This document shows, one piece after another, positions 6,558-23,314 of a stretch of 24,220 nucleotides of DNA. Position 1 is the stretch's first letter; the number at the start of each line of letters is the position of its first letter. The notes under the pieces were generated by a model. That model was not told the origin of the DNA. It ran no database searches and saw only the letters and a list, made by a program, of their open reading frames with translations. This stretch comes from a virus: positions 1 to 24,220 of IMG/VR virus record IMGVR_UViG_3300031952_001574, one strand, 5' to 3'. A program made the translations under genes and the position numbers.

Positions 6558-8411
6558 TTATATAGTAACTTTAAAAGATTTATTTCGTATTATAGACATT
6601 TCCCAACTCTTATGATTGGTTATTTCTACAATAAAGTATTTTATTCTAACTGGTGCACCGGGAGGAGCACTAGGAGATGAACTGACAGAAGAACTTATTG
6701 AAGCAGAGATACTAGCTGAAGCAGAGGCTGATATGCTGGCACTGATTGATGGAGAAGCACTTACGCTAGCACTGATACTAGCAGATGTAGACGCTGATAC
6801 ACTGGCTGAGATAGAGGCAGAAACACTAGCAGACTCTGAAGCACTAATAGAAGGACTAGCAGATACGCTAGCTGAGATAGATGCACTTATTGACTCACTG
6901 ATACTAGCAGATATAGAAGCTGAAGCAGATGCACTGATAGAAGCCGATACTGAAGATGATATGGACGCACTAATAGAAGGTGAGGCTGAAACAGAAGCAC
7001 TAATAGAAGGTGAGGCACTTATAGAGGCAGAGATACTTACAGAGGCACTAACACTAGCTGAGATACTAGGTGAAGCGGATATACTTGCTGATATACTTGG
7101 AGAAGCAGAAACACTAGCTGAGATTGATGGACTGGCTGAAATTGATGCAGAGATAGAGGCTGATATACTAGGACTAGCAGAAACACTAGCACTAATAGAA
7201 GGAGATGCACTAACGCTTGCACTAATTGATGGACTAGCACTAACAGAACTAGAAATACTTGCACTTATACTAGAAGATAAACTAGCACTAACAGACGCTG
7301 AAACACTAACTCCAATACTAGGTGAAGAACTAACACTAGAAGAAATAGATGGAGAGGCAGAGACACTGGCACTAACGGAAACACTTACAGATGCTGAGAT
7401 TGACAGGCTGGCTGAAACGGATGATGATACGCTTGCTGAAACTGAAGCACTTATAGATGGAGACGCTGATATACTTGCACTTATGCTAGTAGAAACAGAA
7501 GCAGAAATACTTAGAGAAGCTGAAACAGACACAGATATAGAAGCAGATATAGAAGCAGATATACTTGCTGAAATACTAGCTGATACTGAAGCACTGACAG
7601 AAACCCCAATACTCGGAGACGAACTAACACTAGAACTAATGCTGGGACTGGCACTAATAGATGCACTAACGGAGGTAGATATACTAGATGATACACTAGC
7701 CGAAATACTTAAACTAGCACTAACGGAAGCTGATACACTAGCAGATATGCTGGCACTGATCGAAGGAGATGCGGATATACTTGCAGATATGGAAGAAGAT
7801 ACACTAGCACTTATGCTTGGAGAAGCGCTTACTGATGCAGAGATACTAGCTGAGATACTAGCTGATACACTAGTACCTACACTTGGAGAAGCACTAACAC
7901 TGGAGCTAATACTAGGTGAAGCTGATACAGAAGATGATATGCTAGCACTTATGGAGGCACTAACAGAGGCACTGATACTTGGACTAGCACTGACACTAGA
8001 AGAAATACTGGCAGATACTGAAGCACTTATACTTTCACTGACTGATGCAGAAATTGAAATACTGGCAGAAACAGAAGAACTTACAGATGCTGATACACTG
8101 GAACTAATACTTGGTGATGCAGAAACAGAGGCTGAGATGGATTCACTGATGCTTGCAGAAATACTAGGAGATGCTGATACAGATGTGGATACAGACGCAG
8201 AAATGCTGGCTGAAATACTTGGTGAAGCACTTACAGAAGAGGATACTGATACACTAGCACTAGAACTAGCTGAGATTGATGGACTGGCTGAAATACTTGG
8301 ACTTGCACTAGAAGATGCAGATATAGACGCACTAATACTGATACTAGCACTGATACTAGATATCTGTCCCCAAGTTATTTCCCAACAATCTGTTCTAAGA
8401 TTTACTGTCAT
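6558..8411 (-). CDS. Serine-alternating repeat fibre or stalk protein
   Basis: A 617-residue protein. Residues 1-17 ([17 protein letters not shown]) form a short head. Residues about 18-581 are an uninterrupted low-complexity tract in which every second residue is serine and the residues between are Ala, Ile, Val and Pro, with occasional Leu, Glu, Thr or Gly. The end (about 582-617, [20 protein letters not shown] onwards) is a small beta-type tail rich in Lys. The start at 8411 overlaps closely with the upstream stop (TAATATG), so translation is probably coupled. Serine is encoded by both AGY and TCN codons throughout, which argues for selection on the protein. It belongs with the fibre genes upstream. 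I infer a stalk or mucin-like surface protein; it has no enzymatic motif. Confidence 0.75.
6668..8360 (-). repeat. Low-complexity repeat tract encoding Ser-X dipeptides
   Basis: About 1.7 kb made of short degenerate repeats. An example is a 20-nt direct copy at 6967-6986 and 6997-7016, spaced 30 nt apart (10 codons). It encodes the serine-alternating region and shares words with the tracts at 9667-10317, 11755-12048 and 13185-13308. The opposite strand is also open across almost the whole length because of this composition. Confidence 0.9.
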
Positions 8412-9198: not shown

Positions 9199-12100
9199 TT
9201 AAGGAGCATACTGGTATACTCTAAACGACACTATATTCGCTAGAGTATAGTTAGTTAAATCTGGTACTGAGGCTGTAAGATCAAAATCTACATTAGCTCC
9301 TGGTGATACATAATAAGATGTTGAACCTGCATACGGTAGAGGATCACCGTAATCCAGAGGAACTTTATTTATGGTATCCCATACATTTGTATCGTTATTA
9401 TAAATTTGTAGATATATTGGAGATATAGAGGGGTCAACATCAGTCTGTCCCTGCCAGCGTACATAACATTCATTGTTTGCAGGAACAACATTAGCAAACT
9501 CTTTATATTCATGAATAGCATATTCACCAGTAGCACTTTGATTTACTCTGGTGTCATTACAAGTAGCAACATCTATTACATCCTGAGCAGAATAAGCAGT
9601 TTCAAGATCAGCATAATTAGTAGGTAGAACTGCATAATCTCCTCTAGTATAATTCTTATATCCAACACTAGGAGATGCGGATACTGATGCTGATATAGAA
9701 GCACTTATACTGGCTGAGATGGAAGCACTTACAGATGCTGAAATAGAGGGTGAAGCACTTACGGAAGAAGAAATACTTGCAGATATACTAGCTGATATAC
9801 TAGCACTAATTGATGCTGAAATACTAGGACTAGCTGAAACTGAAGCTGAAATTGATGCACTAACTGAAGCACTTATTGAAGGACTGGCAGAAATACTTGA
9901 TGATATTGATGCTGATACTGAAGCCGAGATTGATGGAGATGCTGAAACAGATGCAGAAACACTAGCACTTACTGAGGAACTGATAGAAGGACTCGCACTT
10001 ATGCTTGCTGATACAGATGCGGAGACACTAGAGCTTATGGATATGCTAGCAGAAACCGATGATGAGGCGGAAGCACTAATGGACGCAGAGACTGATGCAC
10101 TTCTGCTAGAGGATACAGATGCACTAATTGATATACTTGCCGAAACACTCGATGATACGCTTGAAGAAATGGAAGCACTTATACTAGGACTGGCACTAAC
10201 AGAAGAAGATACTGACGCAGAAATACTAGAACTGATAGAAGCTGAAACAGATGCACTTACACTCGAAGAAACACTGGCTGAAATTGATGGCGATGCACTA
10301 ACTGATGCACTTGGAGAAGTGGTTACTTCATATCTACCAATATCAGGAGCAACACCATGATAACCATCATTAATTCCAGCAATAATAACACCAGCATCTC
10401 TACATGGAGATGCGTAATTTAGATGAAAGTCATAGTTTGGAGCATCTATAAAACTTGGGTCTGCTGTAACATCGTGAGTACCCTGATCTCCCGCTCCAAT
10501 ATTTTCATAATTACCAATGCAATCATAGAAACAAGAATAATCGAGATCGGTAAATACTACTGTCCCACTATAATTGCGCATAGCGTTATGACAATTATAG
10601 AAAATGTTGTTGTATGCTGTTACATAAAGTGTTCCAGCTACAGGAGCAAAGTAGAAACCATCTCCCCAAGCACTCAAATCTAAATCATACAATACGTTAT
10701 GATATAGATACACAGTTCCATTGTTATGAAATATAAAACCATACTGAGAACTCGAGTTGATAAAATATCCAGTGTTGTGATGAATAGTGGCGTTAGTTGT
10801 TCCACCAAGAGCAAATAAACCATGACTGGAGTTTATAAATGTATTATTGTAAAGAGTTAATGTTACCGTTTCGGTAGCGGAGAATGATGATACACAATCA
10901 CCTGTTCCATGAATCTCACAATCATGTATTGTGAATGTTCCACCCCTTAACTCAAAACCACCAGCACCACCCATATTATCGTGACAATTGGAGATAACTG
11001 CCGATGAACTATCTGTAGCATAGATACTAACCATTTGAGAAGTTGATGATGCGTAAAAATCACAATTATCAATTATCAAACTGTCTGAACCAGCACCCAT
11101 AACAATCCAACAGAATGTTCCGCCTGTTGAGTAATCAACTATATGTTTAAAGTTACAGTTTATGACCTGTTGGCTACTACCAAGCATACGAATAGCTTGC
11201 ATCTGATAATAGAAATTTAATCCATCTAATACCTGACGAGCATATCCTGATGAAAGAGTTAAATTCCAATTATTGCTTCTATCGTATACCTCAATAGAAG
11301 TTGGAGCAGAACCACCTATGTTGACATATAGATGATCTCCAGCATTATCAAAATAGAAACTGTTAGTAGTAGAATCACATGTAGCAACACTTGCTACCGA
11401 TGCTAACTTTGTTGCTCCATTCCATACCGCCAAACAATTTCCTGAAACATAATCAGCTTCATATACATTTGTTCTTCCAGCAGTTGCTACCCATGTAGCA
11501 TATTCGTGAGATGCAGCAAATACTGGCTCATGTCCAGAGTCATTCTTTACATTTACTCCATTATGATCTATAGTTTGGTTATACTCTCTAAACCAAGTAG
11601 CTTTGTTTGCAATAGAACCACGAGCAAGAATTAGATCATTATCTCCAACATGGGTTATGGCATGAGTAAGAGTTTGCCAGGGATCGCCAGAACTACCATC
11701 TCCAGTTGCATCATCTCCATTAAGATAATCAATATAGTATGTATTCGGTGGAGTTGATGGACTTGCTGATGGACTAGAACTTGGAGAAGCTGAAATTGAG
11801 GAAGAAATGCTTGCTGATACAGAAGCACTTAATGAGGCAGATATTGACGAACTAACTGAGGCAGATACACTTGATGATGAAGAACCAGCACTAGGACTTG
11901 CAGAAACACTTGATGATATACTGGAAGAAATACTCGATGAAACAGAATCAGAAATAGATGAACTAATACTTGGAGATGATGATACCGATGAGGAAACACT
12001 GGATGAAACAGATGAACTAACTGATGATGAAACACTAGAAGAAACAGATGTTCCTCCGCCTAAATTACCACCCTCAAAATCATCCCCACGTGTTGTTGTA

Positions 12101-12579
12101 TAACCGTAACCGCCAATGCCAGCATAACCCGAAGCAATCCCATCGTCTGTTTGCGCTCCTAATCCAGCATCCGTACTCCCGTTATATTTTGGAGTGATGG
12201 TTGTCCCGCTGGCTTCCAGCCGCATAACATCATTGACGCTCAAACCCGTACTAGATGCTAAGTTTGTCTCTGAACCCGCAATTGTTCTTTGCAGCAATCT
12301 TTGATTGGATGCTGATATATACCTGTAATGTGTATTGGCGCTGGTGGCAACCCGCACCGCCGGGCCAATATAATTTGCAGACGCCAAAGCAACAGCAGTT
12401 ATTTGAGAATATTGATCGTTGTTGAAAGAATCAGCGTTCCAGTGTGCATTACAGTTATCGTTTACGCCTAAAATAACCCCATTGGTATTTATGTGGAAGT
12501 GGTTAAGATTATTCGTCCAGCTGGCACTTAAAAGATCGCCATCTGATCCCGTAAAGGTGTCGGTAGCTGGTAATGCCAT
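9199..12579 (-). CDS. Multidomain fibre: jelly-roll, Ser-repeat, beta-helix, Ser-repeat, C-terminal domain
   Basis: An 1126-residue modular protein. Residues 1-177 look like a LamG/concanavalin-type jelly roll ([15 protein letters not shown], then [15 protein letters not shown] and a Gly-rich end). Residues 178-275 are a first serine tract (SVSS repeats). Residues about 280-750 begin [20 protein letters not shown] followed by WQTLTHAI, the classic opening of pectate-lyase-like right-handed beta-helix proteins. They continue with many short N/I/C-rich turns (for example [28 protein letters not shown]). Residues 755-971 are a second serine tract. Residues about 972-1126 form a beta-rich C-terminal domain ending [10 protein letters not shown]. 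The architecture suggests a host-binding adhesin or depolymerase with flexible stalks. It starts directly after the upstream stop (TAAATG). Catalytic activity of the helix is not demonstrated. Confidence 0.8.
9667..10317 (-). repeat. Second Ser-X repeat tract of the 1126-residue fibre
   Basis: Degenerate short repeats encode residues about 755-971, mainly SAS, SIS, SVS and SPS units with serine at every second position. The wording is the same as in the tract at 6668-8360, so the two could recombine. Confidence 0.88.
11755..12048 (-). repeat. First Ser repeat tract of the 1126-residue fibre
   Basis: This encodes residues about 178-275 between the jelly roll and the beta-helix. It opens with a four-residue period (SVSS) and shifts to SAS/SIS/SPS units towards the beta-helix. 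Confidence 0.85.
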
Positions 12580-13938
12580 TTACAAACTCGCTAATCCAAA
12601 GTAAATAGGCGCGCTGCCCCACTGGTCAGCCATCGCCTTGAGGATTACCCGCATGGTGGTCGTTCCCGTTACCATCGAATAATCGTAACCCTTTTGGGTA
12701 GCCGCATTCGCCATTGCCTGCCGAATATCCGCCGGAATATTTTGCACCTGCAAATCCAGCCAGCCAGTCGTTAGGTTTATATCATGCCCCAGGATACCCG
12801 TCACTCTTTGGAAGAATAAGAAGAAACCGCATATAACTCTTAGAACACCTCTATATGTCAACCCTGTATTTATCCAACCAGAAGGAATATTATAGGTCTC
12901 AAGAAATGTTTGTGCTGTAGTAACTGCACCCATTGTCATAGTGTTATCTATATTTAATGGTAATGCGAGTACATCAGAATTAGATACTAACAATTCGTGA
13001 TCTGAGGCATAAATATTTGCACACAATATAGCTTGATTTATTGAGCCATAGTCTTTCATTGACCAAGTACAGGCAAATCCGGCATGTTGTACGGCCCTGG
13101 CAGGCCAACCACCAAAGTATTTTGGGCCACGAGTACCATCAAATACATCAATGGGTAATATGTAATATCTTATATCTTGCGTCCCGCTTGGACTTGGAGA
13201 GACACTCGAACTTACTGATGACGAGATACTTGCACTTATAGATGGCGAAGCACTAATACTTGATGATATAGAAGATGATATGGATGATGATACTGATGAA
13301 GAGGGAGATGCTACCGCAGGTCTAATAGCCGCTAAAGCGCAAATATTGATTGCGGCAGTTGAGAACGTACAGGATGAAACTCCTGTTGCCGAACCTGCAC
13401 CTACTTGAAGATTATTTGCTATTGCTATTCTGGTATATGTGGAGTAAGCACTATCCACTTGCTCTGCAAGCGCACCAGGATTAGTAGCAACAGCCTCATT
13501 GGTTACACTATAAGAACCTATTGGTGTACCAAAGAAACCAACAATCATACAATCTGAAGATGTTGGAGTTATTGAAGTTGTACCAGTTGCAGTAGAAGCA
13601 TTTCTCCCGATGGATGGAGTTACATCCATAGGATTATTTTCAGATGCACCCGTAAATCTGATACAAGTTACCTGAGTTCTGGTTGTGCCAGAAAATGACC
13701 AGGGGCCAACGCCAATACTATTTTTACCGTATACTCCCCAAAATAACTCTCCTCTACCGCTTGTACCAGATGCAGAAGCAACTCTTGTCCATCCCGTAGG
13801 TGCTGTAGTAGTACCAGATGCGACACGATCAATTTTATATGCAAGTAACAAATCACCTATCTGTACTCCAGTAGGAGCAGATAATGAGGCTGAGTTTGTT
13901 CCCGATGCTGTAGAGGTATTTTGGTATACAACAGCCAT
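12580..13938 (-). CDS. Fibre/adhesin-like protein with a central serine linker
   Basis: A 452-residue protein. Residues 1-210 match a beta-sandwich type common in phage structural proteins: GVQIGDLLLAYKIDR, then APTGWTRVASASG, LFWGVYGK and a closing INICALAAIRPA. Residues 211-251 are a serine linker. Residues 252-452 form a second domain I do not recognise (IRYYILPIDVFDGTRGPKYF near its start, ADQWGSAPIYFGLASL at its end). A GGAGG site 10 nt before ATG 13938 supports the start, and the stop of the upstream glycosyltransferase lies 2 nt before it. It is the first of the fibre genes and directly follows the glycosylation genes. The 3' end (about 12600-12800) is clearly more GC-rich than the rest, which suggests a replaced C-terminal segment. 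Confidence 0.72.
   Translation of the reverse strand: MAVVYQNTSTASGTNSASLSAPTGVQIGDLLLAYKIDRVASGTTTAPTGWTRVASASGTSGRGELFWGVYGKNSIGVGPWSFSGTTRTQVTCIRFTGASENNPMDVTPSIGRNASTATGTTSITPTSSDCMIVGFFGTPIGSYSVTNEAVATNPGALAEQVDSAYSTYTRIAIANNLQVGAGSATGVSSCTFSTAAINICALAAIRPAVASPSSSVSSSISSSISSSISASPSISASISSSVSSSVSPSPSGTQDIRYYILPIDVFDGTRGPKYFGGWPARAVQHAGFACTWSMKDYGSINQAILCANIYASDHELLVSNSDVLALPLNIDNTMTMGAVTTAQTFLETYNIPSGWINTGLTYRGVLRVICGFFLFFQRVTGILGHDINLTTGWLDLQVQNIPADIRQAMANAATQKGYDYSMVTGTTTMRVILKAMADQWGSAPIYFGLASL
13185..13308 (-). repeat. Serine linker tract of the 452-residue protein
   Basis: Short degenerate repeats encode residues about 211-251 (SVSSS, SISSS and SPSIS units), the shortest member of the repeat family shared by three fibre genes. 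Confidence 0.82.
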
Positions 13939-13940
13939 TA

Positions 13941-14888
13941 CTAATTATCCTCCGGGATTGCATCCCATCCTGGGACAGGCCAGAATTTTCTTACCAACCA
14001 TGACAAGGGATAAATTTGTTTATCCCATTTATTTTCAAAGAACAATTCTTTTGCTCTTTTCTTAGCAAAGTCAACTTGCCTACCAGATATAGGATAAGGG
14101 AAACTAAAATCCCCGCCTTGAGTCCTAAACATATGACCATAATAAGTTTTGTGATCTACCATTACTTTACCACCTGATAACCAAGTTTTTACTGCTACTT
14201 CAATTCCCTGACTACCCCAAGTACCAAATTCTTCATCACATATATTAAGTTCAAACCATTTATCTCTAGTAAGCATAAAACAAGAGCCTTGAAGAGACAT
14301 TGTTTCTGTTAATCCTGTTTTTTCTAAATCTTCTTTGTACATATCTCTTTTAGTATAATCATTAAAATATTGAAAATGTGGTGTACTGTCAAAGCAATAA
14401 GAATTGCTTTGAGGTTTTTCTTTTGCTATCCAAACCATTTTTCTTATAAACTTAGTACCATCACATTCAGAATTAAAACATTTAGTTGGAGTTGGCCCTT
14501 GATAAGTTTTCTTACCACACTTTACACATTTCCAATCAAAGGCATGTAGGTTTCTCATTGTAGGTACTATAGTCCAATCGTCTTGGATATCATTCATTAG
14601 AATAGTATCAAATCCCTCTGCAAATGAACAGTGACCATCACACTTCATAAGATATTTAGCACTAGAAATACTGGCACATCTATTAGCAATTCCTCTTTGT
14701 CCAATACTTTCTGGATAATAAACAACTGAAACATCAGGGTGTTGAGGTATAACTGGGTCTGCCCACTGTCCATCAAGTCCAACTATAATTTCTGTATTAC
14801 CTCTTTTATGTTCTAATATGTCTTCTACTGTTTTGGAAACGAACATTTCATTCCTGCTAGGAATTATGATTGAGAGGTCATATGTCAT
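13941..14888 (-). CDS. GT2-fold glycosyltransferase, polypeptide GalNAc-transferase-like, with zinc ribbon
   Basis: A 315-residue GT-A glycosyltransferase expected to move a sugar from a nucleotide donor. It opens LSIIIPSRNE (5-14), the GT2 nucleotide-binding strand. A D-G-H motif at 84-86 (MKCDGHCSF) matches the metal-binding D-x-H of GT27 enzymes. The acceptor side reads SLQGSCFMLTRDKWFEL (198-214), then WGSQGIEVAVKTWLSGG (224-240) and YYGHMFRTQGG (249-259). This closely follows the GT27 pattern GG-x-FAIDR, WGGEN-x-E, GH-x-FR. Cys121, Cys124, Cys137 and Cys142 form a probable zinc ribbon that the paralogue at 20189 lacks. AAGGAAG precedes ATG 14888, which overlaps the upstream stop (ATGA). 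It is the last glycan gene before the serine-rich fibre genes. Confidence 0.85.
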   Translation of the reverse strand: MTYDLSIIIPSRNEMFVSKTVEDILEHKRGNTEIIVGLDGQWADPVIPQHPDVSVVYYPESIGQRGIANRCASISSAKYLMKCDGHCSFAEGFDTILMNDIQDDWTIVPTMRNLHAFDWKCVKCGKKTYQGPTPTKCFNSECDGTKFIRKMVWIAKEKPQSNSYCFDSTPHFQYFNDYTKRDMYKEDLEKTGLTETMSLQGSCFMLTRDKWFELNICDEEFGTWGSQGIEVAVKTWLSGGKVMVDHKTYYGHMFRTQGGDFSFPYPISGRQVDFAKKRAKELFFENKWDKQIYPLSWLVRKFWPVPGWDAIPEDN

Positions 14889-15508
14889 TCTTTCTTCCTT
14901 AGTCTTGAGATAATCTCAAATTCAGGTATACCAACTGTTCTTTGCATAACTGTACTAAAACCAACAAAGTAATCAGAGAGGAGAAATTGAGTAGACTTAT
15001 TCCAAATAATACAATCATCCCAATCTTCTGCTTTACAAATATTCCACTTATGAGTATTAGCATACTTCTGATATTCAGCATTATTATAAAAATGCTTTAA
15101 ATAAATCCAGCCCCCTGTTTTACATACTCTATACATTTCTTGTAATGCTTTCAGGGGGTCTGCACAATGGTCTAATGCATTGACACAATGTACAATATCA
15201 AAGAAATTATCTTTATATGTTAATTGTAACATATCTTGCCTTTCTACGGATATTATAGGTATAACTTTAGCTTTTTTCAATAATTCTTTATATTCATTTG
15301 CTAATATATCAGAAGGATATAAATGTACAATTGCAGTAGGATATGTAGAACCAGTAGTAGAAAATAAACCTGCACCTAAATCAGCAATATTTACTTCCGT
15401 TTTCTCCCCTATCATCTCCCCAAAATAAGATGCTAAAGGAAATACATGATTGAACTGTCTTGCTTTATAGGGTAACTTGTTTTCGTAGAAACGTAAAGTA
15501 GCGTTCAT
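14885..15508 (-). CDS. Class I SAM-dependent methyltransferase (Methyltransf_11 type)
   Basis: A 207-residue Rossmann methyltransferase. The SAM-binding motif I is IADLGAGLFS (41-50). Later motifs are DMLQLTYKDNFFDIVHCVNA (about 92-111), followed by LDHCADPLKALQEMYRV and the strand GGWIYLKHF, the usual order for small-molecule or sugar methyltransferases of this family. It starts with ATGA overlap after the neighbouring methyltransferase and ends with ATGA overlap into the GT27-like gene, so the three are one translational unit. The substrate is unknown. A sugar made by the adjacent glycosyltransferase is the natural guess. Confidence 0.82.
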   Translation of the reverse strand: MNATLRFYENKLPYKARQFNHVFPLASYFGEMIGEKTEVNIADLGAGLFSTTGSTYPTAIVHLYPSDILANEYKELLKKAKVIPIISVERQDMLQLTYKDNFFDIVHCVNALDHCADPLKALQEMYRVCKTGGWIYLKHFYNNAEYQKYANTHKWNICKAEDWDDCIIWNKSTQFLLSDYFVGFSTVMQRTVGIPEFEIISRLRKKE

Positions 15509-15993
15509 ACAAGAAAATCCAATGATTCAAAATTACTCAATACTGTAGTATAGGGCATAAACTTAGTATAGGTATATTTACTTCTAAACATTGGATATAT
15601 TTCTTCATAGTGATAATACATCTCTTCTTTAGGTTGAGTGTCATGTAATACTACAAATGTAGCTAAGTTAGCAACTTGTTTAGCTAACTTAGCTCTCGTA
15701 TCCATAGGATTAGCGTCAATGAAAACTATGTCCCATTTCTTTTCAATGTCAATGAAATTCCAATCAGTTATCAAATGGGCTTCATGAAATGAATTGTTAT
15801 TTCTACCAACCATATTAAAATATCTTTCATCATTATCGTACGATACTAGTTTTCTATTAGCGTCTACACACAGCCAGAATAAAAGCGGGGTACTATAAAC
15901 TCCCATTCCTAACTCTAATACATCCCCTTTAGTATGTTCAAAAAGTTTTATTAATACGGGAATATGAGAACCCCAGTGCATTTTCCACTTCAT
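15505..15993 (-). CDS. Small class I SAM-dependent methyltransferase
   Basis: A 162-residue protein if started at ATG 15993, which overlaps the upstream stop (ATGA) and has AGGAG 7 nt before it. A longer version from 16020 would need a non-ATG start inside the upstream gene and is less likely. Motif I is VLELGMGVYSTPLL (25-38), the acidic motif II is LVSYDND (49-55), motif IV is WDIVFIDANP, followed by FVVLHDT. This is the Methyltransf_24-like order also seen in the pair at 18483-19546. It lacks a long C-terminal substrate domain. The substrate is not deducible; its place between a putative glycosyltransferase and a second methyltransferase points to glycan modification. Confidence 0.8.
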   Translation of the reverse strand: MKWKMHWGSHIPVLIKLFEHTKGDVLELGMGVYSTPLLFWLCVDANRKLVSYDNDERYFNMVGRNNNSFHEAHLITDWNFIDIEKKWDIVFIDANPMDTRAKLAKQVANLATFVVLHDTQPKEEMYYHYEEIYPMFRSKYTYTKFMPYTTVLSNFESLDFLV

Positions 15994-16748
15994 TCTATCT
16001 CCTGTCCACACGTAGGACAAACTTTATAAGTATAGCTTTCATCATAGAGTTTCATTGCCTCATGACAAGAACCCCAAGGTACAAGATAAGTTCCTCTTAG
16101 TTCTCCCAATGCTTTCCTTTCACCAGTAGGACGAGTTCTCCCCCTAGGAGTTTGAATATAACCTAAACCGTGTGGGTGGAAAAACTGCACCATTGACCTG
16201 CCACCCCAACCCTCTTCTGTCTTTCTAACTTTTACACCAAGATATTCATCATATCTTCCAGGTTCACCACAAAACTTATTGGTATCATATTCAGGATATT
16301 TTTCTAATCTTTCCTCAAGACTATCCACAAGTAAATCCCTAAGACAGATCAAACCAAATATCACCATACGCTTCTTCCATGAAAATGTCATTGGCCTAGA
16401 CCACGTAAAAATAGACCACTTGTTAATATCGTACAATAAGATATCATCTGTTTTAGGTCTTAGGATAAAGTGTTCTTTGGGGTATAATACATCGTCTTCT
16501 GCACAGGCTACATACTTTGTCTTTGCTGCTTTTGCTCCCTGAAGTATTTGCCAGTAAATATTTCTATTTGAACGTCCGATATCACCAACACATATATTCT
16601 CTCCAAAATCCATTGGTTTATGAGAAACACTAATAACTGATGTATCTCCTATAGACTCCTTCAAGATTCTGCGAGTATTTCCAACAAAGTATGGATTATG
16701 TTCATCAAGGAAGTTGGCTGTATAATAGATTATGCTAAGATCATTCAT
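15990..16748 (-). CDS. Putative glycosyltransferase, KP-x-DFG-x-N family (copy A)
   Basis: A 252-residue protein, one of three paralogues in the window. Shared landmarks are an N-terminal strand LSIIYYTAN (4-12), a VSHKPMDFGENICVG block (41-55) and an acidic AEDDVLYPKEHF motif (83-94). The last resembles the D-x-D metal site of GT-A glycosyltransferases. The C-terminal half has its own Arg/Gly-rich segment (GYIQTPRGRTRPTGERKALG) and ends in a CPTCG zinc-knuckle-like tail. The start at 16748 has AGG sequences just upstream. It is separated from the other glycan genes by the lysozyme and radical SAM genes. Glycosyltransferase activity is inferred from the motif and context; I cannot place it in a named family. 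Confidence 0.65.
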   Translation of the reverse strand: MNDLSIIYYTANFLDEHNPYFVGNTRRILKESIGDTSVISVSHKPMDFGENICVGDIGRSNRNIYWQILQGAKAAKTKYVACAEDDVLYPKEHFILRPKTDDILLYDINKWSIFTWSRPMTFSWKKRMVIFGLICLRDLLVDSLEERLEKYPEYDTNKFCGEPGRYDEYLGVKVRKTEEGWGGRSMVQFFHPHGLGYIQTPRGRTRPTGERKALGELRGTYLVPWGSCHEAMKLYDESYTYKVCPTCGQEIE

Positions 16749-16934
16749 TTTACCTATCCTATGAATATTGTTTTCATGTTATGAACCTCATGGTTTCGAT
16801 AATTAGGAATTATCACAACCATGAATTGTCTCTACCTGGCCCCCTGGGGGTTGCAGGGAGCAGGGAGAAATGGAACCGTGGCCGGCTACCGATGGCTTGA
16901 CCGGCGTCTTCGATGGCGGTGCCCAGGATGAAGG
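16749..16934. other. Non-coding gap after the lysozyme gene
   Basis: This 186-nt stretch has no clear gene of its own. The half next to the lysozyme (about 16840-16934) is very GC-rich and stays open in another frame. The other half (16749-16830) is AT-rich and carries the palindrome at 16788-16824 and the ribosome binding site of the next gene. The compositional step at about 16840 looks like a junction. Confidence 0.6.
16788..16824 (-). other. Long palindromic hairpin
   Basis: Nested inverted repeats: TCATGGTT (16788-16795) pairs with AACCATGA (16817-16824), and inside it GATAATT (16798-16804) pairs with AATTATC (16808-16814) around a 3-nt loop. Only two mismatched positions on each side interrupt the stem. 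It lies just downstream of the GC-rich lysozyme segment. No T-run follows on the transcribed strand. It could be a terminator-like or processing hairpin, or a remnant of an insertion boundary. Confidence 0.6.
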
Positions 16935-17648
16935 TCACCAGGAGTACCACAATCGGGATAAGCTGTTGATGTAGGGTGGGAATTGAGCGTCTTTGGGAAA
17001 GTATTGTCTTACTTCGCTCCACTTGCAGATCACTGGCGGAGCGATCCAGGTGGCCGACATCAGTTTCACATCGGGGTGTTTGGCAACCCAGGTTTCGAGC
17101 ATGTTGACCCCTCCGACCATGCAAGCGGCTTTGCCGTATTGTTCGCTGGTGTAGAGGATCAAGGGCACGTCGGGAATTTCTTTGGCTGCCTGACCTTCTT
17201 TGACATGCTTGTACATCAGGTCAAGGTTGGCCATGACCCAGTTTGAAGGGATGCGTCCCTGCTCGGGGACGGCGTTTAGCCATTGTTTTTCCATGTCAAA
17301 CATGAGGCAATAGATGCCCTTGTTAGCGGTCCAGGTTTTGAGGCGCTGGTATTCGAGGTTGGCAGTGCGGGGCATGTTCTTGTAGGCGTCCAGGCCGCCG
17401 GCGAGCTGGGCGATGATGTAGTAGTCAGGGGAAAGGTAGATATAGGCGCCGGCGGGGATGCCGAAGTTCTGGGCCTGCTGAATGTAGCCAGGGAAAGAGT
17501 AGTCGTACTGCATCGACTCTGATCTACCTGGGGTTAGTTCCCCACACTTGCAGATCACCAGGTCAACGAAACCTGTGGCGAGGGAAAAGTCAAAGGTATT
17601 GTAGTGTGACAAGTCAACAACGATTGGATTTTTCGACCAGGTAGGCAT
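16935..17648 (-). CDS. GH25-type lysozyme (putative endolysin)
   Basis: A 237-residue enzyme expected to cut the glycan backbone of peptidoglycan (muramidase). The fold landmarks of GH25 are present: VVDLSHYN (10-17, Asp12), a VDLVICKCGE strand (28-37), FGIPAGAYIYL (62-72), the catalytic D-x-E strand YCLMFDMEKQ (113-122, Asp118 and Glu120), and LILYTSEQYG (163-172). AAGGAG at 17658-17663, 9 nt before ATG 17648, fixes the start; upstream in-frame codons lie inside the radical SAM gene. There is no signal peptide. Base composition is far richer in GC than in both flanks, which suggests recent acquisition. The C-terminal end lacks the usual W-Q-Y-S pattern and another frame stays open past the stop, so the end may be altered. 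Its place inside a glycan cluster, away from a lysis cassette, is unusual. Confidence 0.78.
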   Translation of the reverse strand: MPTWSKNPIVVDLSHYNTFDFSLATGFVDLVICKCGELTPGRSESMQYDYSFPGYIQQAQNFGIPAGAYIYLSPDYYIIAQLAGGLDAYKNMPRTANLEYQRLKTWTANKGIYCLMFDMEKQWLNAVPEQGRIPSNWVMANLDLMYKHVKEGQAAKEIPDVPLILYTSEQYGKAACMVGGVNMLETWVAKHPDVKLMSATWIAPPVICKWSEVRQYFPKDAQFPPYINSLSRLWYSW

Positions 17649-17657
17649 ATGATTACA

Positions 17658-17663
17658 CTCCTT
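17658..17663 (-). promoter_or_regulatory. Ribosome binding site of the lysozyme gene
   Basis: AAGGAG, 9 nt before ATG 17648, overlaps the stop codon of the radical SAM gene (TAA at 17664-17662). It decides the lysozyme start, because longer in-frame versions would run into the radical SAM gene. Confidence 0.8.
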
Positions 17664-18486
17664 AAGCGTTTCTATTATATTCTGAAAAAGGGACAGTTCG
17701 CCAGATCCAGCGGTTTGACCAGCGTGACAAATCTCGCAACTTCTGCACCGTCCAATCAAACCGAACGATTGGTTTTTTTTCCAGTGAATACATAGGAATC
17801 ATTGGCTGTACGTGCGGTTCGCCACCCCACTCAATAACACGTAGGATGCGATGTAAGCAAATCTCAAAAGGTTCATTTCCGATCAGAACATAAATACGTT
17901 TTGAATAGGATGGTTCATCTTTGATAATCTGCATAGCTTTATAAACCTCATCCGCTTCTTTTTCCTCATCAAACGCCAACCGCCACGCACCCCGATTAAT
18001 CTTTTTCCAGCGTCGATAAACCTCATCAGTGAATGTCCGCGGTTCAAATCCGCTATTTATATCAAGTAAAGAAACGCCATATTTTTGATATTTCTCGATG
18101 ATGTAATCCTGATAATCTGCGGGCAATGCGGAGAGGTTGTTATCACACAATATAGGGCGTGGGGTAAACTCTGGGAGTAAAGTAAATTCTTTTCCCTCCA
18201 TTTTTGGGACAACACAGAAATAACAACCAACCGGACAACCGCGGCTGGCTATGGTCGCATCAGGATTATGACGCACCAGGGCGTCAACGTGGCCGCCGAT
18301 TTCTGCAACATCTGCAAAATAGGATGGTTTCGCAAATAAACCTGGTCCACCCACGCGTACATTAAAACCGGCTTCTCTATACCATATTGCACGCTGATAG
18401 ACTTGCTGTAATTTCCATGAAAACACAACGGAGATAAAAGCCGTATTTTCTTCGATCCATTCAGTAATTCCACCAGACCAGCTCAT
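17662..18486 (-). CDS. Radical SAM protein
   Basis: A 274-residue enzyme with the iron-sulfur cluster motif C-x3-C-x2-C at Cys84, Cys88 and Cys91 (SRGCPVGCYFC), which marks radical S-adenosylmethionine chemistry. The N-terminal 80 residues (FISVVFSWKL, then FNVRVGGPGLF) look like a shortened version of the region before the radical domain in B12-type radical SAM proteins. After the motif, a beta/alpha barrel is suggested by ILCDNNLSALP, DINSGFEPRTF and RIYVLIGNE. ATG 18486 overlaps the upstream methyltransferase stop (ATGA) and follows GGAGG with 5 nt spacing; a TTG at 18501 would add five residues and is less likely. The substrate is unknown. Base composition is intermediate between the AT-rich cluster and the GC-rich lysozyme, so the two may have arrived together. 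Confidence 0.85.
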   Translation of the reverse strand: MSWSGGITEWIEENTAFISVVFSWKLQQVYQRAIWYREAGFNVRVGGPGLFAKPSYFADVAEIGGHVDALVRHNPDATIASRGCPVGCYFCVVPKMEGKEFTLLPEFTPRPILCDNNLSALPADYQDYIIEKYQKYGVSLLDINSGFEPRTFTDEVYRRWKKINRGAWRLAFDEEKEADEVYKAMQIIKDEPSYSKRIYVLIGNEPFEICLHRILRVIEWGGEPHVQPMIPMYSLEKKPIVRFDWTVQKLRDLSRWSNRWIWRTVPFSEYNRNA

Positions 18487-19016
18487 TTTACCTCCCACCA
18501 AAAACTATGAGGTTTTTCTTCTGTAATAAACCCCTCAATATGGTGGGCAGTTGTATAAGCATCCACCGCAATAACAACATCTACATCTTTAAGATTATAG
18601 TAATCATGACCTGACATAATCCCTCCCTTTCTTACCTTCTTATTCCATTCAATAATATCTCTCATGATATAATCAAAAGAATGGTTTCCGTCTATGTAGA
18701 CAAAATCTAATGTACCGTCATTAACATGATTCAATGCTTCCATACTAGTCATTCTCAATATCTCAACATTGAAAGGTTTCAATATCCTAAGTGCATGAGC
18801 ATAGTTATTCTCATGGTCATTAGCATAATCATGTGGATCATCTGTATTTGAAATCCAAGGATCAATCGAATACAATTTCACATCGGGTACAAACCAGAAA
18901 AAGACTCGTGACATCTTTCCCTTGCAAACACCAACCTCTGCACCTACTTTGAAACCCAACTCACCAAAATACTTGGCTAGTTCAACTCTTGTCTTGATAG
19001 TAGGGTGTGTAATCAT
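18483..19016 (-). CDS. Class I SAM-dependent methyltransferase (Methyltransf_24-like), copy 2
   Basis: A 177-residue methyltransferase and tandem paralogue of the next upstream gene. Motif I is VGAEVGVCKGKMS (23-35). Then come LYSIDPW with the acidic residue of motif II, LDFVYIDGNHSFDYIMRDII (motif IV region) and GGIMSGHDYY. ATG 19016 was chosen because it overlaps the upstream stop (ATGA), aligns with the start of the paralogue and gives the same length of 177 residues. An ATG at 19031 is possible but has no ribosome binding site. The family often methylates sugars or natural products; the substrate here is inferred to be a glycan. Confidence 0.8.
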   Translation of the reverse strand: MITHPTIKTRVELAKYFGELGFKVGAEVGVCKGKMSRVFFWFVPDVKLYSIDPWISNTDDPHDYANDHENNYAHALRILKPFNVEILRMTSMEALNHVNDGTLDFVYIDGNHSFDYIMRDIIEWNKKVRKGGIMSGHDYYNLKDVDVVIAVDAYTTAHHIEGFITEEKPHSFWWEVK

Positions 19017-19546
19017 TTGAACCAGAACCATGTAGTTTCAGGGTCTAATGTAAAATACACCTGCTCAATTTTATGTGCTTTTGTATAAGCATCTACCGCT
19101 TCTATCACCCCTGCATTTCCAAAAACATAGTAATCGTGTCCAGACACAATTCCTCTCTTTCTAACTTTTTTACTCCATTCAATGATATCTTCCATAACAT
19201 AATCAAATTTATGATTGGCATCTATAAATACAAAATCTAAAGATTCATCTCTAAAATCCTTTACAGCATCCAAACTTAACTTCCTAATAAGTTCTGCACC
19301 GTAAGGTTTGGCAAGTCTTTCGACACATAAATTATAACGAGCTTCTTGAACCTCGTCTCTTCTTTCTTTAGAGCCAAGATATCTGTGCCATGCATCAATA
19401 CAATACAGTTCCAGATTAGGAATACCCTTGCATAACTTCAAAGAAAAGCCACCCTCCTTGACTCCAATTTCTGCACCTATTTTAAAACCTAATTGATTAA
19501 AGAAGGCTGGAAGATTATCTCTTAACTCAACAGACGGATGAATCAT
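19013..19546 (-). CDS. Class I SAM-dependent methyltransferase (Methyltransf_24-like), copy 1
   Basis: A 177-residue methyltransferase. Motifs are IGAEIGVKEGGFS (23-35), LYCIDAW (47-53), LDFVFIDANHKFDYVMEDII and GIVSGHDYY. About half of its residues match the downstream copy by eye, so the pair arose by tandem duplication and then diverged, mainly in the segment after LYCIDAW, where substrate specificity is often set. AAGGAG 8 nt before ATG 19546 and ATGA overlap with the upstream gene fix the start; a longer non-ATG version is unlikely. Confidence 0.82.
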   Translation of the reverse strand: MIHPSVELRDNLPAFFNQLGFKIGAEIGVKEGGFSLKLCKGIPNLELYCIDAWHRYLGSKERRDEVQEARYNLCVERLAKPYGAELIRKLSLDAVKDFRDESLDFVFIDANHKFDYVMEDIIEWSKKVRKRGIVSGHDYYVFGNAGVIEAVDAYTKAHKIEQVYFTLDPETTWFWFK

Positions 19547-20196
19547 ATTAATAACTCCTTTTGTAAATCTGTACACAAACCCCAATAAGGTAGGCTGTAC
19601 TCTCCTTTTGTATTTACTTGTGTTCCAGTAAAAACTCTCATTCCATGACCAGTTTTAGTACTTATCATAGGATTACCCTCAAAATATCCCCACGATCTAT
19701 AAGGAAAAACAGGTTTAACTTTGCTTATTTGAGCATTTGGAGTTGGATTCCATAAGGGTTGTCCTTCAAGAGTTGTAGTCAGCAACCTAATAAAGTACTC
19801 CCTACCAATTATTTGTGCACCCTCAGTCCAATCTTTACGTAAGAAAAATGGTCTTCCCATTCTCATTATCCAAACTGGATTATATCTATAAATCTTATTA
19901 ATTTCGGTAGGAACAAATTCAAAATATTCTGGTGGATATAAAGCATCTGCTTCAGCAACAAGAATAAATGGAGTAGTTGCTTCCTCACATCCAATTAAAA
20001 CTTGTCGCCACTCATTGAACTCATTCATACTAACTTCACCCACACAAATATTTTTACCAAAATCCAAAGGTTTCTGAGATATTGATATAAGTGGTAAATC
20101 TCCAATAACTGAAAGTAACCTTTTCCGTATATTAGTTGCAAAAGGTTCTAATTCAGTATTAGCTGTATAATAAATTACTGTGGCATGATTACTCAT
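19543..20196 (-). CDS. Putative glycosyltransferase, KP-x-DFG-x-N family (copy B)
   Basis: A 217-residue paralogue of the proteins at 15990 and 21200. It shares the strand ATVIYYTAN (5-13), the SQKPLDFGKNICVG block (40-53) and the acidic AEADALYPPEYF motif (81-92), and is closest to copy A. The C-terminal half (GYFEGNPMISTKTGHGM) carries a short Gly-rich part but no Cys tail. It overlaps the GT27-like gene upstream by 8 nt and the methyltransferase downstream by ATGA. It probably works with the GT27-like enzyme encoded just before it. The activity is inferred. Confidence 0.65.
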   Translation of the reverse strand: MSNHATVIYYTANTELEPFATNIRKRLLSVIGDLPLISISQKPLDFGKNICVGEVSMNEFNEWRQVLIGCEEATTPFILVAEADALYPPEYFEFVPTEINKIYRYNPVWIMRMGRPFFLRKDWTEGAQIIGREYFIRLLTTTLEGQPLWNPTPNAQISKVKPVFPYRSWGYFEGNPMISTKTGHGMRVFTGTQVNTKGEYSLPYWGLCTDLQKELLI

Positions 20197-21034
20197 AAAA
20201 TTCTTTGGGCCATCCTACATCACCAAATCTATCTGCAAATCTTTTTAAAAGCCATTGAATTGATAGAGTTTGTTTGTGCCAAGCATTAGGTTGCAACCAT
20301 ATATCAGAATGGCTGACTTCATTGGGTAGATTATAACCACGATTACGTTTATGCCAATGGGCATACCAAGTATTTTTATTTACAACTACTCTGCCACCAG
20401 ATAACCAGCACTTCATACCAACTTCAAGAAATTCATCCCAAAAGTTGCTATAAGTTTCTTTATCCATTAATTCTAATTCATAGAAGTAATCTCTATGCAT
20501 AAAATAAGCAGAACCTTGGGCGGTCATTAAATCATCTATTTTGGTAGCTTTCAAATCCTCACGTACATTTAGTGTATTCCATATCTTACCATGTAGCCCA
20601 CAAAGACTTCCATCAGCATTATATGGATAACTAAGATACATATAAGCTACATCAGGCCTGCCTTTTACTTCTTCTAGTTCCCATGCTTCAGGAAGTAATC
20701 TTTTTCTCACTGGAACAGATACCCAATTAGGTTCACAATCTGCCATTAGTTTTACATCAAAACCTTCATCAAACATGCAGTGTGAATCACATTTGAGAAT
20801 ATATTTAGAATCAGAAATTGCTACAGCAGAATTGATACCATCTCTAAGTCCTTGTGAGACTCCTCTATGAATTAGTCTTACTTTAGGATTATCTTTCAAT
20901 GGGGGGTTAGGCCAGTACCCGTCCAAGATACAGACTACTTCAGTATCTGCTCTGGCTTTATTAAAGATATCGTCAATTGTCTTCTGCAAATATATCTCAT
21001 TCCTGGCAGGAATCACAACTGTTACATCACTCAT
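20189..21034 (-). CDS. GT2-fold glycosyltransferase, polypeptide GalNAc-transferase-like
   Basis: A 281-residue GT-A glycosyltransferase. It begins VTVVIPARNE (4-13), has the donor/metal motif D-S-H at 83-85 (LKCDSHCMFDEGFD), and a C-terminal acceptor region with MTAQGSAYFMHRDYFYELEL, then FLEVGMKCWLSGG and TWYAHWHKRNRG. The D-x-H and the QGS...E...W-x-GG order resemble GT27 polypeptide GalNAc-transferases. The WGG and GH-x-FR parts are less well kept than in the paralogue at 13941, and there is no ricin-type lectin domain. An AAGGAG site 8 nt upstream supports ATG 21034. The stop overlaps the next gene. It is probably a second peptide- or sugar-acceptor transferase in the same pathway. Confidence 0.83.
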   Translation of the reverse strand: MSDVTVVIPARNEIYLQKTIDDIFNKARADTEVVCILDGYWPNPPLKDNPKVRLIHRGVSQGLRDGINSAVAISDSKYILKCDSHCMFDEGFDVKLMADCEPNWVSVPVRKRLLPEAWELEEVKGRPDVAYMYLSYPYNADGSLCGLHGKIWNTLNVREDLKATKIDDLMTAQGSAYFMHRDYFYELELMDKETYSNFWDEFLEVGMKCWLSGGRVVVNKNTWYAHWHKRNRGYNLPNEVSHSDIWLQPNAWHKQTLSIQWLLKRFADRFGDVGWPKEFYE

Positions 21035-21203
21035 TTATTTTCTCCTTTTTTATTATTGGTCTTTTACTTGGGACAACTAAGGGCAAATCTCTTGGATTAT
21101 CATGAGTAGTACCAGGGCAACAAACAACACATATACTCCACTGGGTATGCAAAGTATCTCGTTTGCATTTCCAACACCATCTTAGAGTAGTATTCTCCCT
21201 CAT
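21027..21203 (-). CDS. Tiny zinc-knuckle protein (58 residues)
   Basis: A short gene in what would otherwise be a 165-nt gap. ATG 21203-21201 overlaps the stop of the upstream gene (ATGA), and its stop (21029-21027) overlaps the start of the GT27-like gene by 8 nt, exactly the spacing habit of this cluster. The product is 58 residues. It has two Cys pairs, Cys10/Cys13 (WCWKC) and Cys25/Cys28 with an extra Cys29 (ICVVCC), that could bind one zinc ion, followed by a Lys-rich tail. GGGAGA-like sequence near the start is weak, so translation is probably coupled. I do not recognise the family. It may be a small partner of the flanking enzymes. Confidence 0.6.
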   Translation of the reverse strand: MRENTTLRWCWKCKRDTLHTQWSICVVCCPGTTHDNPRDLPLVVPSKRPIIKKEKINE

Positions 21204-21880
21204 TTCATCTCCTTTACTATCTCTGGTAATCTAGGCCATCCTGGAATATTAGTTATCGTACTCTCTTCCCAAAATGTAGGTTTTGTTCTAAACTTGTCTG
21301 GCGACCACTTTCTATTAGTCAAATTCTTACCATGATACAAATCTAAATTTGGGAAGGGTGGATAAAACCTTTTCATTCTATACATATGTTCCCATCTTAT
21401 TCTATTATGACTCATAGGTTCAAAACCAATATTATAACTAAAACCATTCTTTCTTACATACTCTACTCTTTCTTTATAGTGAATTAATAAGATATCTCTA
21501 TATGCACATAGTCCAGAAAGAGGCCCCATATTGTAATGCACTGCAAAACCATCACTCATTCGTACAACCCAATAATTACCATTATAATAAATCGTGTCAT
21601 GTTTCTCAGGAGTGAATTCAAAATGGGTTGGATGATATAAAATATCCGCTTCACAAAAGAATACTATATCCTCAGTCATTTCTTCCAGTCCCCACAGTAT
21701 GTTCTCAAACAAAGTCTGATAACTCTTGGGGGTGGGAGAAACTAAATTCTTGCCAAAATCTATTGGTTTTATAGTAACACTAGTAATAGGTAAATCAGAA
21801 CTTATAATATGCTCTCTACAAATTAAATCTATCCTATCATCCAGTTCATTGGAGGAATAATATAAAATACCTTTATTCAT
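21200..21880 (-). CDS. Putative glycosyltransferase, KP-x-DFG-x-N family (copy C)
   Basis: A 226-residue, more distant paralogue of the copies at 15990 and 19543. It has GILYYSSN (4-11), IKPIDFGKN (37-45) and CEADILYHPTHFEF (76-89), so the backbone of the family is kept, but the C-terminal half (MYRMKRFYPPFPNLDLYHGK) differs. The start at 21880 overlaps the end of the epimerase gene by 8 nt, and the stop overlaps the tiny zinc-knuckle gene. Like the other copies it neighbours a GT27-like gene. The glycosyltransferase role is inferred from the E-x-D motif and context. Confidence 0.62.
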   Translation of the reverse strand: MNKGILYYSSNELDDRIDLICREHIISSDLPITSVTIKPIDFGKNLVSPTPKSYQTLFENILWGLEEMTEDIVFFCEADILYHPTHFEFTPEKHDTIYYNGNYWVVRMSDGFAVHYNMGPLSGLCAYRDILLIHYKERVEYVRKNGFSYNIGFEPMSHNRIRWEHMYRMKRFYPPFPNLDLYHGKNLTNRKWSPDKFRTKPTFWEESTITNIPGWPRLPEIVKEMK

Positions 21881-22664
21881 TTCTTGCCCTTTCTATCATA
21901 TTCTTTAATCCTTCTTCTAAGGAAACAACAGGAGTCCAGTGTGGAAGTTGAAAAGTTACAGGAGTATGGACAGAGGCTCTTGTTTCTTTACCACATATTA
22001 TCTCAGCACCAGTTTCCTTAGCGATAATTCTTGCTACATCTATAATACTTACCCATCTAGAATTTGTAACATCATAAGTACCATTGAGTTTCTTTTTCAT
22101 AGCTACATGAAAAGCCCTGAAAACATCATCAATGTAAACAAACTGTCTCCTCTCTTCCCCTGTAGTCATCATCTCAATTTTGCCTGTTCTAACAGCACTA
22201 TAAACAAAATCGGATATTACGTGTGATCTTTTAGAGGGTTCTTCAAGAGTTCCATAAACATTCCACAATCTAAGGTAAGTACCACCAATTAGACTTGTCC
22301 ACACTTCACCCAGTCTTTTAGTAACACCATATGCAGTATCTGGTTTCCCTGCAAGCTGACTAGATGCAAATAGAAAGGGAACTCTTGCTGTCTGAAGTTG
22401 TGGCATAATATTAGATAAAAGTTTGATATTCCAATTCAGTTGGTAAAGTTGGGTATCTTCCTCATACAAATATTTAGCCCCACCTACGTCCCACGCTAAG
22501 AAATAAACGGCTTCAACATCTTCTAAATCTAAGTATTCATAACGTAAGTCATAGTGTCCAGGATATTTTATATCTAATCCAACTACTTCCTTACCCATAC
22601 TCTTTAAATAATTGCAGAAGGGTTTACCAATAAATCCTTCAGAGCCTAGCACTAATGTCTTCAT
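21873..22664 (-). CDS. NAD-dependent sugar epimerase/dehydratase (extended SDR)
   Basis: A 263-residue extended short-chain dehydrogenase. It has the nucleotide-binding G-x-x-G-x-x-G motif GSEGFIG (7-13), the acidic NAD-ribose residue in VVGLDIKY, the catalytic serine region FASSQLAG (99-106) and Y-x-x-x-K as Tyr112/Lys116 (AYGVTK). RQFVYIDDVFRAFHVAM is typical of nucleotide-sugar epimerases and dehydratases. It is somewhat shorter than the usual 300-340 residues. ATG 22664 overlaps the upstream FkbM gene stop (ATGA). It probably makes or interconverts a nucleotide sugar for the transferases downstream. The exact reaction cannot be read from sequence. Confidence 0.9.
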   Translation of the reverse strand: MKTLVLGSEGFIGKPFCNYLKSMGKEVVGLDIKYPGHYDLRYEYLDLEDVEAVYFLAWDVGGAKYLYEEDTQLYQLNWNIKLLSNIMPQLQTARVPFLFASSQLAGKPDTAYGVTKRLGEVWTSLIGGTYLRLWNVYGTLEEPSKRSHVISDFVYSAVRTGKIEMMTTGEERRQFVYIDDVFRAFHVAMKKKLNGTYDVTNSRWVSIIDVARIIAKETGAEIICGKETRASVHTPVTFQLPHWTPVVSLEEGLKNMIERARNE

Positions 22665-23314
22665 ATTTTATCAATCACATAAATAGAATTATATACATCA
22701 GTATGTATACACTTGTAATTTCTATTAACAAACCAAGTATCAATTTCTTCAACATTAGTAGTAGTCTCTATAATTATCATCTTAGGCAACCATTTTCTCC
22801 AAGAAAATCCATTAAGTACTTTCATCTCCGCACCTTCCACATCAATTACCAATAGGTCAAATTTGTGGGGTACTTTATACATCTTTAGTAGTTGATCTAT
22901 AGTTATAACTGGTACTGTCATATGTCTATCGGGATTGTACTTCTTACCCCAACCAGTTGCTTTATCGGGTGTATATTCAGTAGTGCTACTGGGAAAATCT
23001 ATATACTTGCCACCCTGTCTAACTCTAGGCCCAGTATATAACTGAACCTCTCCATCAAAATCACTAATAGCATAGTTAGCAACAACTACTTTATTATTCT
23101 TATGTACTTTTACACAACGTCTGGCTATCTTAGGAATAGGTTCTACATATAGTCCTTTCCATCCAGCCTCAGCAAGACCCCACGTATTAGAGAATGTATA
23201 ACCATCATATGCACCAATCTCTACAAAGTAACCATTTGTTTTACCATCAAAGTATTTTTCATAGAAACTATTAATATTATCAATCTGGCAGGAGTTTGAT
23301 ACTTTATATGTCAT
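22661..23314 (-). CDS. FkbM-type methyltransferase, copy 2
   Basis: A 217-residue SAM-dependent methyltransferase of the FkbM kind, which usually methylates hydroxyl groups of sugars or secondary metabolites. It shows the family landmarks FVEIGAYDG (30-38), GLAEAGWKGLYVEP (46-59) and, in the second half, LLVIDVEGAEMKVLNGF. AGGAG lies 5 nt before ATG 23314, and the start overlaps the stop of the first copy by 1 nt (TAATG). The two copies have the same length (217) and about half of their residues in common by eye. They differ most in the middle (here TGPRVRQGGKYIDFPSS), where the acceptor is probably bound. Confidence 0.88.
   Translation of the reverse strand: MTYKVSNSCQIDNINSFYEKYFDGKTNGYFVEIGAYDGYTFSNTWGLAEAGWKGLYVEPIPKIARRCVKVHKNNKVVVANYAISDFDGEVQLYTGPRVRQGGKYIDFPSSTTEYTPDKATGWGKKYNPDRHMTVPVITIDQLLKMYKVPHKFDLLVIDVEGAEMKVLNGFSWRKWLPKMIIIETTTNVEEIDTWFVNRNYKCIHTDVYNSIYVIDKI

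Follow-up and report, generated by a model that had tools for sequence, protein, structure and literature searches.

Initiation of O-glycosylation by enzymes of the CAZy family GT27, the polypeptide N-acetylgalactosamine (GalNAc)-transferases, is a hallmark of animals and of some protists. Two glycosyltransferases with the predicted layout of this family are encoded in the 24,220-base IMG/VR virus record IMGVR_UViG_3300031952_001574, hereafter the window, which is a fragment of a tailed phage, as seen from its terminase and portal genes. They are named here GT1 and GT2, the latter being distinct from the general GT2 family, and GT1 is closely linked to genes for proteins with long Ser-X-Ser-X arrays. 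The open-licence literature yielded no description of GT27-like enzymes from phages or from the ultra-small bacteria of the Candidate Phyla Radiation (CPR, Patescibacteria), and the authors know of no report of a GT27-like enzyme paired with such arrays.

13941..14888, minus strand: GT1, GT27-like glycosyltransferase of 315 amino acids, D84-x-H86...H252, with a probable zinc-ribbon insertion (PF00535, PDB profile search, model, alignment)
20189..21034, minus strand: GT2, paralogous GT27-like glycosyltransferase of 281 amino acids, D83-x-H85...H226 (PF00535, PDB profile search, model)

Closest described systems

Long serine repeats that are glycosylated in the cytoplasm by adjacently encoded enzymes are known from the serine-rich repeat adhesins of Gram-positive bacteria. 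The initiator there is GtfA/GtfB, of the GT4 type, and export proceeds through SecA2/SecY2, whereas the window has a GT27-like enzyme and CPR genomes have tatC nearby. Virion proteins modified by phage-encoded glycosyltransferases have been described in mycobacteriophages (Che8 gp110, Corndog gp38 and Myrna; Freeman, 2023, cited in PMC12363180), and the Che8 cluster also includes a methyltransferase domain. The Che8 system differs from the window in that gp110 is GT25-like (PF01755), gp108 and gp109 are ordinary GT2 enzymes, and the acceptors are the capsid and tail tube, with no Ser-X arrays. In a three-sequence database, the GT1 and GT2 family profiles gave E values of 0.4 and 0.3 for gp110, 0.1 and 0.2 for gp109, and 0.001 and 3.6e-6 for gp108, which probably shares with GT1 and GT2 the general GT2 fold alone.

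Predicted GT27-type core of GT1 and GT2

The first-pass annotation had read the two open reading frames (ORFs), both of which are present on the minus strand, as glycosyltransferases with a GT2-type start, D-G-H or D-S-H in place of the usual D-x-D, and a QGS...W-x-GG acceptor region, and all of this is borne out. PF00535 is matched at 26.7 bits by GT1 and 37.1 bits by GT2 (curated cut-off 23.3), and the D-x-D of the general family is replaced by D84-G-H86 in GT1 and D83-S-H85 in GT2. The acceptor region appears as Q200-G-S and W236-LSGG in GT1 and as Q173-G-S and W210-LSGG in GT2. The two further blocks ascribed to GT1, WG-x-Q-x-IE and G-H-x-F-R, are found as W224-G-S-Q-G-I-E230 and G251-H252-M-F-R255; their counterparts in GT2 are F198-W-D-E-F-L-E204 and Y224-A-H226.

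Searched against PDB as single sequences, GT1 retrieves GalNAc-transferases at 2.7e-7 and GT2 only at 0.14. With family profiles built from viral contigs (27 sequences for GT1, 43 for GT2), GalNAc-transferases rank first for both, at 3.5e-11 for GT1 (GalNAc-T1 being the best) and at 1.9e-14 for GT2, where positions 4-265 of 280 are aligned; ordinary GT2 structures cover mainly about the first 100 residues. Toxoplasma GalNAc-T3 also appears among these hits, under the name "Glycosyl transferase 8uhv". By hhalign (5.7e-86), GT1 and GT2 are paralogues. PHROGs has no family for either protein, and NCBIfam gives nothing above cut-off for them.

The AlphaFold models, with a mean predicted local distance difference test score (pLDDT) of 92.3 for GT1 and 94.1 for GT2, point the same way, as the best 50 Foldseek matches of each are all GalNAc-transferases. 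In VIA-align, the 29 listed GalNAc-transferase entries all score Z 23.6-27.4 against GT1 (best 6nqt_F, 2.8 A over 269 residues, 20% identity) and Z 22.6-26.6 against GT2 (best 6e7i_A, 2.6 A over 260 residues), the best values for GalNAc-T2 being 27.4 and 26.6, respectively. After a gap, 6p61 scores 19.8 (GT1) and 19.6 (GT2), and WrtF, chondroitin polymerase and others follow at about 18; absence from these lists was not taken to exclude any family. GalNAc-T1, T2 and T10 and Toxoplasma GalNAc-T3 are the closest of the described enzymes. The part shared is the GT-A domain, aligned to residues 134-442 of GalNAc-T2 with about 270 residues superposed at 2.6-2.8 A.

GT27 enzymes are defined by a D-x-H motif with a third histidine ligand (D276, H278 and H414 in Toxoplasma GalNAc-T3), a gating loop (H414-P426) and a lectin domain (PMC11074326). 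Numbered as in the full-length 8v9q chain of the printed alignments, D209, H211 and H344 of GalNAc-T1 align with D84, H86 and H252 of GT1 and with D83, H85 and H226 of GT2. All 27 of 27 relatives share the three GT1 residues, and their consensus, D-A-H-C, has the same form as in GalNAc-T1; the 43 rows of the GT2 family all have D83 and H226, and at least 90% have H85. GalNAc-T1 E322 aligns with GT2 E204 and with GT1 E230, which varies in its family.

For the peptide-binding groove, whose conservation had been left to check, sequence alignment gives a divided answer. In GT1, the gating loop H252-P264 has 13 residues, the same length as in Toxoplasma GalNAc-T3, and F172, W224, F254 and R255 align with GalNAc-T2 F280, W331, F361 and R362, which are presumed here to be functional residues, F361 being taken as the aromatic of the loop. 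F172, F254 and R255 are conserved in the GT1 family; by alignment, GT1 retains the loop and the equivalents of two groove aromatics, and GT2 has the loop and lacks its aromatic at the aligned position.

Placement among polysaccharide-acting GT2 enzymes, with no affinity to GT27, would have spoken against the first-pass annotation; profiles, Foldseek and VIA-align instead place the two proteins with GT27, and the metal triad is present in both. Sequence and models together indicate that GT1 and GT2 carry the catalytic core of a polypeptide GalNAc-transferase with an intact metal site. Unlike the eukaryotic enzymes, they belong to a prokaryotic virus, would act in the cytoplasm, and lack both a ricin-type lectin domain and a type II membrane anchor: they stop after the catalytic domain, where GT1 relatives bear GTc (a family described below) or other domains, and strand 1 of the GT-A fold begins at residue 4 or 5, the N-terminus not being hydrophobic. 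A further difference is an insertion in GT1 with C121, C124 (H in some relatives), C137 and C142, which is probably a zinc ribbon; one of the 27 relatives matches the DZR_2 double zinc ribbon at 0.0013. Because these lectin and membrane domains are absent and the activity is a predicted one, the proteins are called GT27-like and not GalNAc-transferases.

Linkage of GT1 to Ser-X-Ser-X array proteins

Three Ser-X-Ser-X array proteins are encoded downstream of GT1 in the window, with A, I, V or P mostly in the X position.

12580..13938, minus strand: 452-amino acid protein with a Ser-X array of 21 units (about 13183-13308), next to GT1 on its downstream side
9199..12579, minus strand: probable fibre protein of 1126 amino acids with Ser-X arrays at about 11752-12048 and 9664-10317
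6558..8411, minus strand: 617-amino acid protein, almost all Ser-X array (about 6666-8357)

In the array of the 617-amino acid protein, 126 AGY and 173 TCN serine codons are intermixed. A simple DNA repeat is thereby ruled out, and the alternate serines appear to be maintained by selection at the protein level. Array proteins of related loci also include folded domains, for example of the Laminin G/ConA-like type, and no obvious Sec signal was seen by eye on those inspected. In two loci, Ser-X arrays are joined to ConA/Laminin G domains (L083:14675-18232 and L043:14306-15817), and these proteins may be virion adhesins.

The association was measured in 78 viral loci retrieved by the GT1 profile alone, an array being defined as at least 12 units. 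Arrays are present in 66 of the 78 loci and in every one of the 31 that reach at least 14 kb, and one lies within 2.5 kb downstream of GT1 in 43 of the 56 loci that have 2.5 kb of downstream sequence. Among 120 random viral loci, retrieved by an arbitrary 14-base pattern and shorter on average (55 being at least 9 kb), neither arrays nor GT27-like genes occur (0/120 for each; Fisher for the arrays, 1.3e-40). The FkbM methyltransferase, tried as a matched control, gave one locus, and the random loci and the terminase relatives of the window were used instead. Within the window's phage lineage, as drawn by terminase, GT1 and arrays occur together in one relative; a second, on a short record, has arrays; and both are missing from 15 others (10 of the 15 searched at record level, the others as fetched loci only).

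The association was also followed in reverse, from the arrays to the enzyme. The first Ser-X DNA pattern drew many poly-Ser and SG/SR microsatellites, which were removed by a composition filter. GT27-like genes accompany six of nine loci with at least 40 units, the other three lying on short records, and one of 28 loci with 14-39 units (Fisher, 2e-4). As Ser-X-Ser-X proteins are near-obligatory companions of GT1, the proposal of a protein acceptor, already made from the motifs, is strengthened, and a serine-rich acceptor would be a further likeness to the polypeptide GalNAc-transferases.

Distribution and hosts

No match to GT1 or GT2 was found by tblastn in 50,697 isolated phages, and the catalytic domain of mouse GalNAc-T1 gave a single weak, partial match there. 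GT1 relatives are frequent among uncultivated phages and CPR genomes: at least 393 IMG/VR stretches encode one, and a genome scan, made once, returned 55 loci, nearly all from CPR/Patescibacteria. The host of the window is accordingly taken to be a CPR bacterium. Some of the CPR contigs bear a terminase; others are chromosomal, with the relatives among housekeeping genes.

In 15 of 21 tatC-bearing CPR genomes, tatC and a GT27-like gene share a contig and lie about 1-15 kb apart. One WWE3 genome has GT1, then a TatA-like ORF, TatC and a 2323-amino acid Ser-X protein, and a GT27-like/Ser-X island near tatC was seen on CPR chromosomes G031:C1, G040:C9, G049:C2 and G056:C14 (L354-L357) and at L102:3219-3992. 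This arrangement suggests that Tat export is tied to a serine-repeat glycoprotein in CPR; no twin-arginine signal was seen by eye on the Ser-X proteins inspected. In a tree of 91 GT1 sequences, virus and genome rows are intermixed and supported branches force at least seven label changes, some of which may also represent a prophage or a mis-binned contig.

The surrounding island and the GTc family

All main genes of the window lie on the minus strand, transcribed in the order methyltransferases, epimerase, glycosyltransferases, lysis gene, Ser-X proteins, terminase, portal and probable head protein. GT1 and GT2 sit inside a larger island of about 13.9-24.2 kb that includes the genes between them, a correction to the first-pass annotation. 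The contig was identified as phage from the terminase large subunit. The remaining features are the following.

23314-23967: ORF similar by eye to the FkbM-family methyltransferase of 22661..23314
22661..23314, minus strand: FkbM-family methyltransferase (PF05050, 7.3e-25; TIGR01444)
21873..22664, minus strand: NAD-dependent sugar-nucleotide epimerase/dehydratase (PF01370, 3.2e-20)
21200..21880, minus strand: GTc family protein and probable second glycosyltransferase; its homologue forms the C-terminal fusion domain of GT1 in many relatives
19543..20196, minus strand: GTc family protein (family alignment)
19013-19585: ORF similar by eye to the Methyltransf_24 methyltransferase of 18483..19031
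18483..19031, minus strand: Methyltransf_24 methyltransferase (4.1e-15)
15990..16748, minus strand: GTc family protein with an E-D-D motif (weak PF00535 match, 0.079)
15505..16020, minus strand: 171-amino acid protein, possibly methyltransferase-like by eye, with no confident family
14885..15508, minus strand: S-adenosylmethionine (SAM) methyltransferase (Methyltransf_11, 2.8e-14)
4662..6221, minus strand: terminase large subunit (phrog_2, 1.1e-12)
3082..4650, minus strand: portal protein (phrog_2739, 8.8e-26)

In many relatives, GT1 is fused at its C-terminus to a domain homologous to the three GTc ORFs of the window. GT1 ORFs of more than 450 amino acids occur in 41 of the 78 loci, the identity of the fused domain having been read in a separate set of relatives. 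The GTc family has an invariant E77-x-D79 and a Y-Y-T-x-N start, and it probably represents a second glycosyltransferase. The epimerase, for which no NCBIfam equivalog scored above its cut-off, is a possible supplier of the donor sugar.

Long viral ORFs that join GT27-like and other domains were seen at L051:4032-6872, L045:9986-12601 and L046:9302-11812, with a tandem GT27-like pair in L051 and L046. The glycosylation island of the window also holds an endolysin-like lysis gene (16935-17759; phrog_291, 8.7e-7), in a stretch whose GC of 0.50 is above its surroundings, and, between the endolysin and methyltransferase genes, a radical SAM protein (17662-18501; phrog_9298, 3e-16).

Proposed mechanism and alternatives

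GT1 and GT2 are likely to be metal-dependent GT-A enzymes of the phage with a GT27 core, GT1 starting the O-glycosylation of the phage's own fibre-like Ser-X virion proteins. GT1 would add the first sugar, from a UDP-sugar for which UDP-GalNAc and UDP-N-acetylglucosamine (UDP-GlcNAc) are candidates, to serines of the arrays in the host cytoplasm, before the virion is assembled. GT2, the GTc proteins and the methyltransferases would then extend and cap the glycan, and the product would be a mucin-like glycosylated stalk or fibre.

Several observations weigh against this explanation. Identity to GalNAc-transferases is just 16-22%, GalNAc-T1 E319 aligns with Q227 in GT1, and in GT2 the position expected to hold the loop aromatic is taken by H228. 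The linkage to GT1 is a functional association, which does not make the Ser-X serines the acceptor, and the Ser-X proteins are presumed to be virion parts, judging by position and form. Neither Pfam nor PDB yields a confident match to GTc, and hhalign does not relate it to GT2; its glycosyltransferase role is therefore based on the fusion to GT1 and on the E-x-D motif.

The work may also be divided so that only one enzyme acts on naked protein, with GT1 initiating on serine and GT2 placing the second sugar on its product, a variant given somewhat less than an even chance. It would agree with the retention of F172 and F254 in GT1 against H228 in GT2, and with the presence of GT2-type genes alongside GT1 in 68 of the 78 loci, in several copies in some. 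Against it, GT2 retains both acidic positions (E201 and E204, equivalent to GalNAc-T1 E319 and E322), of the two profiles that of GT2 matches GalNAc-transferases more strongly, and several loci have a Ser-X gene just upstream of GT2 as well.

Comparable, and again not quite an even bet, is that the island is primarily a system for CPR surface glycoproteins which phages borrowed merely to match the host surface. The chromosomal relatives among housekeeping genes, the nearby tatC and the intermixed tree all accord with this; however, some CPR contigs bear a terminase, transfer may have run in either direction, and the idea is compatible with the glycosylation of the phage's own fibres. That GT1 and GT2 instead make a polysaccharide or alter a host surface glycan (superinfection exclusion, serotype conversion), the Ser-X proteins travelling along without being acceptors, is unlikely: although both match PF00535 and the epimerase and FkbM-type methyltransferases of the island are common in polysaccharide loci, by structure and sequence the two stand closest to GalNAc-transferases, which act on protein, with chondroitin polymerase, heparosan synthase and WrtF scoring far lower; the window shows no recognisable lipid-carrier or membrane glycosyltransferase; and the Ser-X linkage holds despite the forced virus/genome changes on the tree.

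In a wider form of the preferred explanation, towards which the balance tips slightly, CPR phages and CPR bacteria share a prokaryotic mucin-like O-glycosylation, in which a cytoplasmic GT27-like initiator and extending enzymes act on Ser-X-Ser-X proteins that become phage fibres or, perhaps via the linked Tat system, part of the CPR cell surface.

Significance

Glycosylation of phage virions is known from a few mycobacteriophages, where enzymes of other types carry it out. If the proposed reading is true, a large family of uncultivated phages has a prokaryotic counterpart of mucins, and a widespread prokaryotic family has the same catalytic core as the enzymes that initiate mucin-type glycosylation in animals. 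Small, soluble serine glycosyltransferases might also be obtained from the phage family. In a study of groundwater Patescibacteria phages, sugar-nucleotide and ConA-lectin genes are listed as auxiliary metabolic genes (PMC12911398), and the system described here would offer a reading for them. How phages of CPR bacteria recognise their hosts, which live attached to other cells, or mimic them also becomes a testable question.

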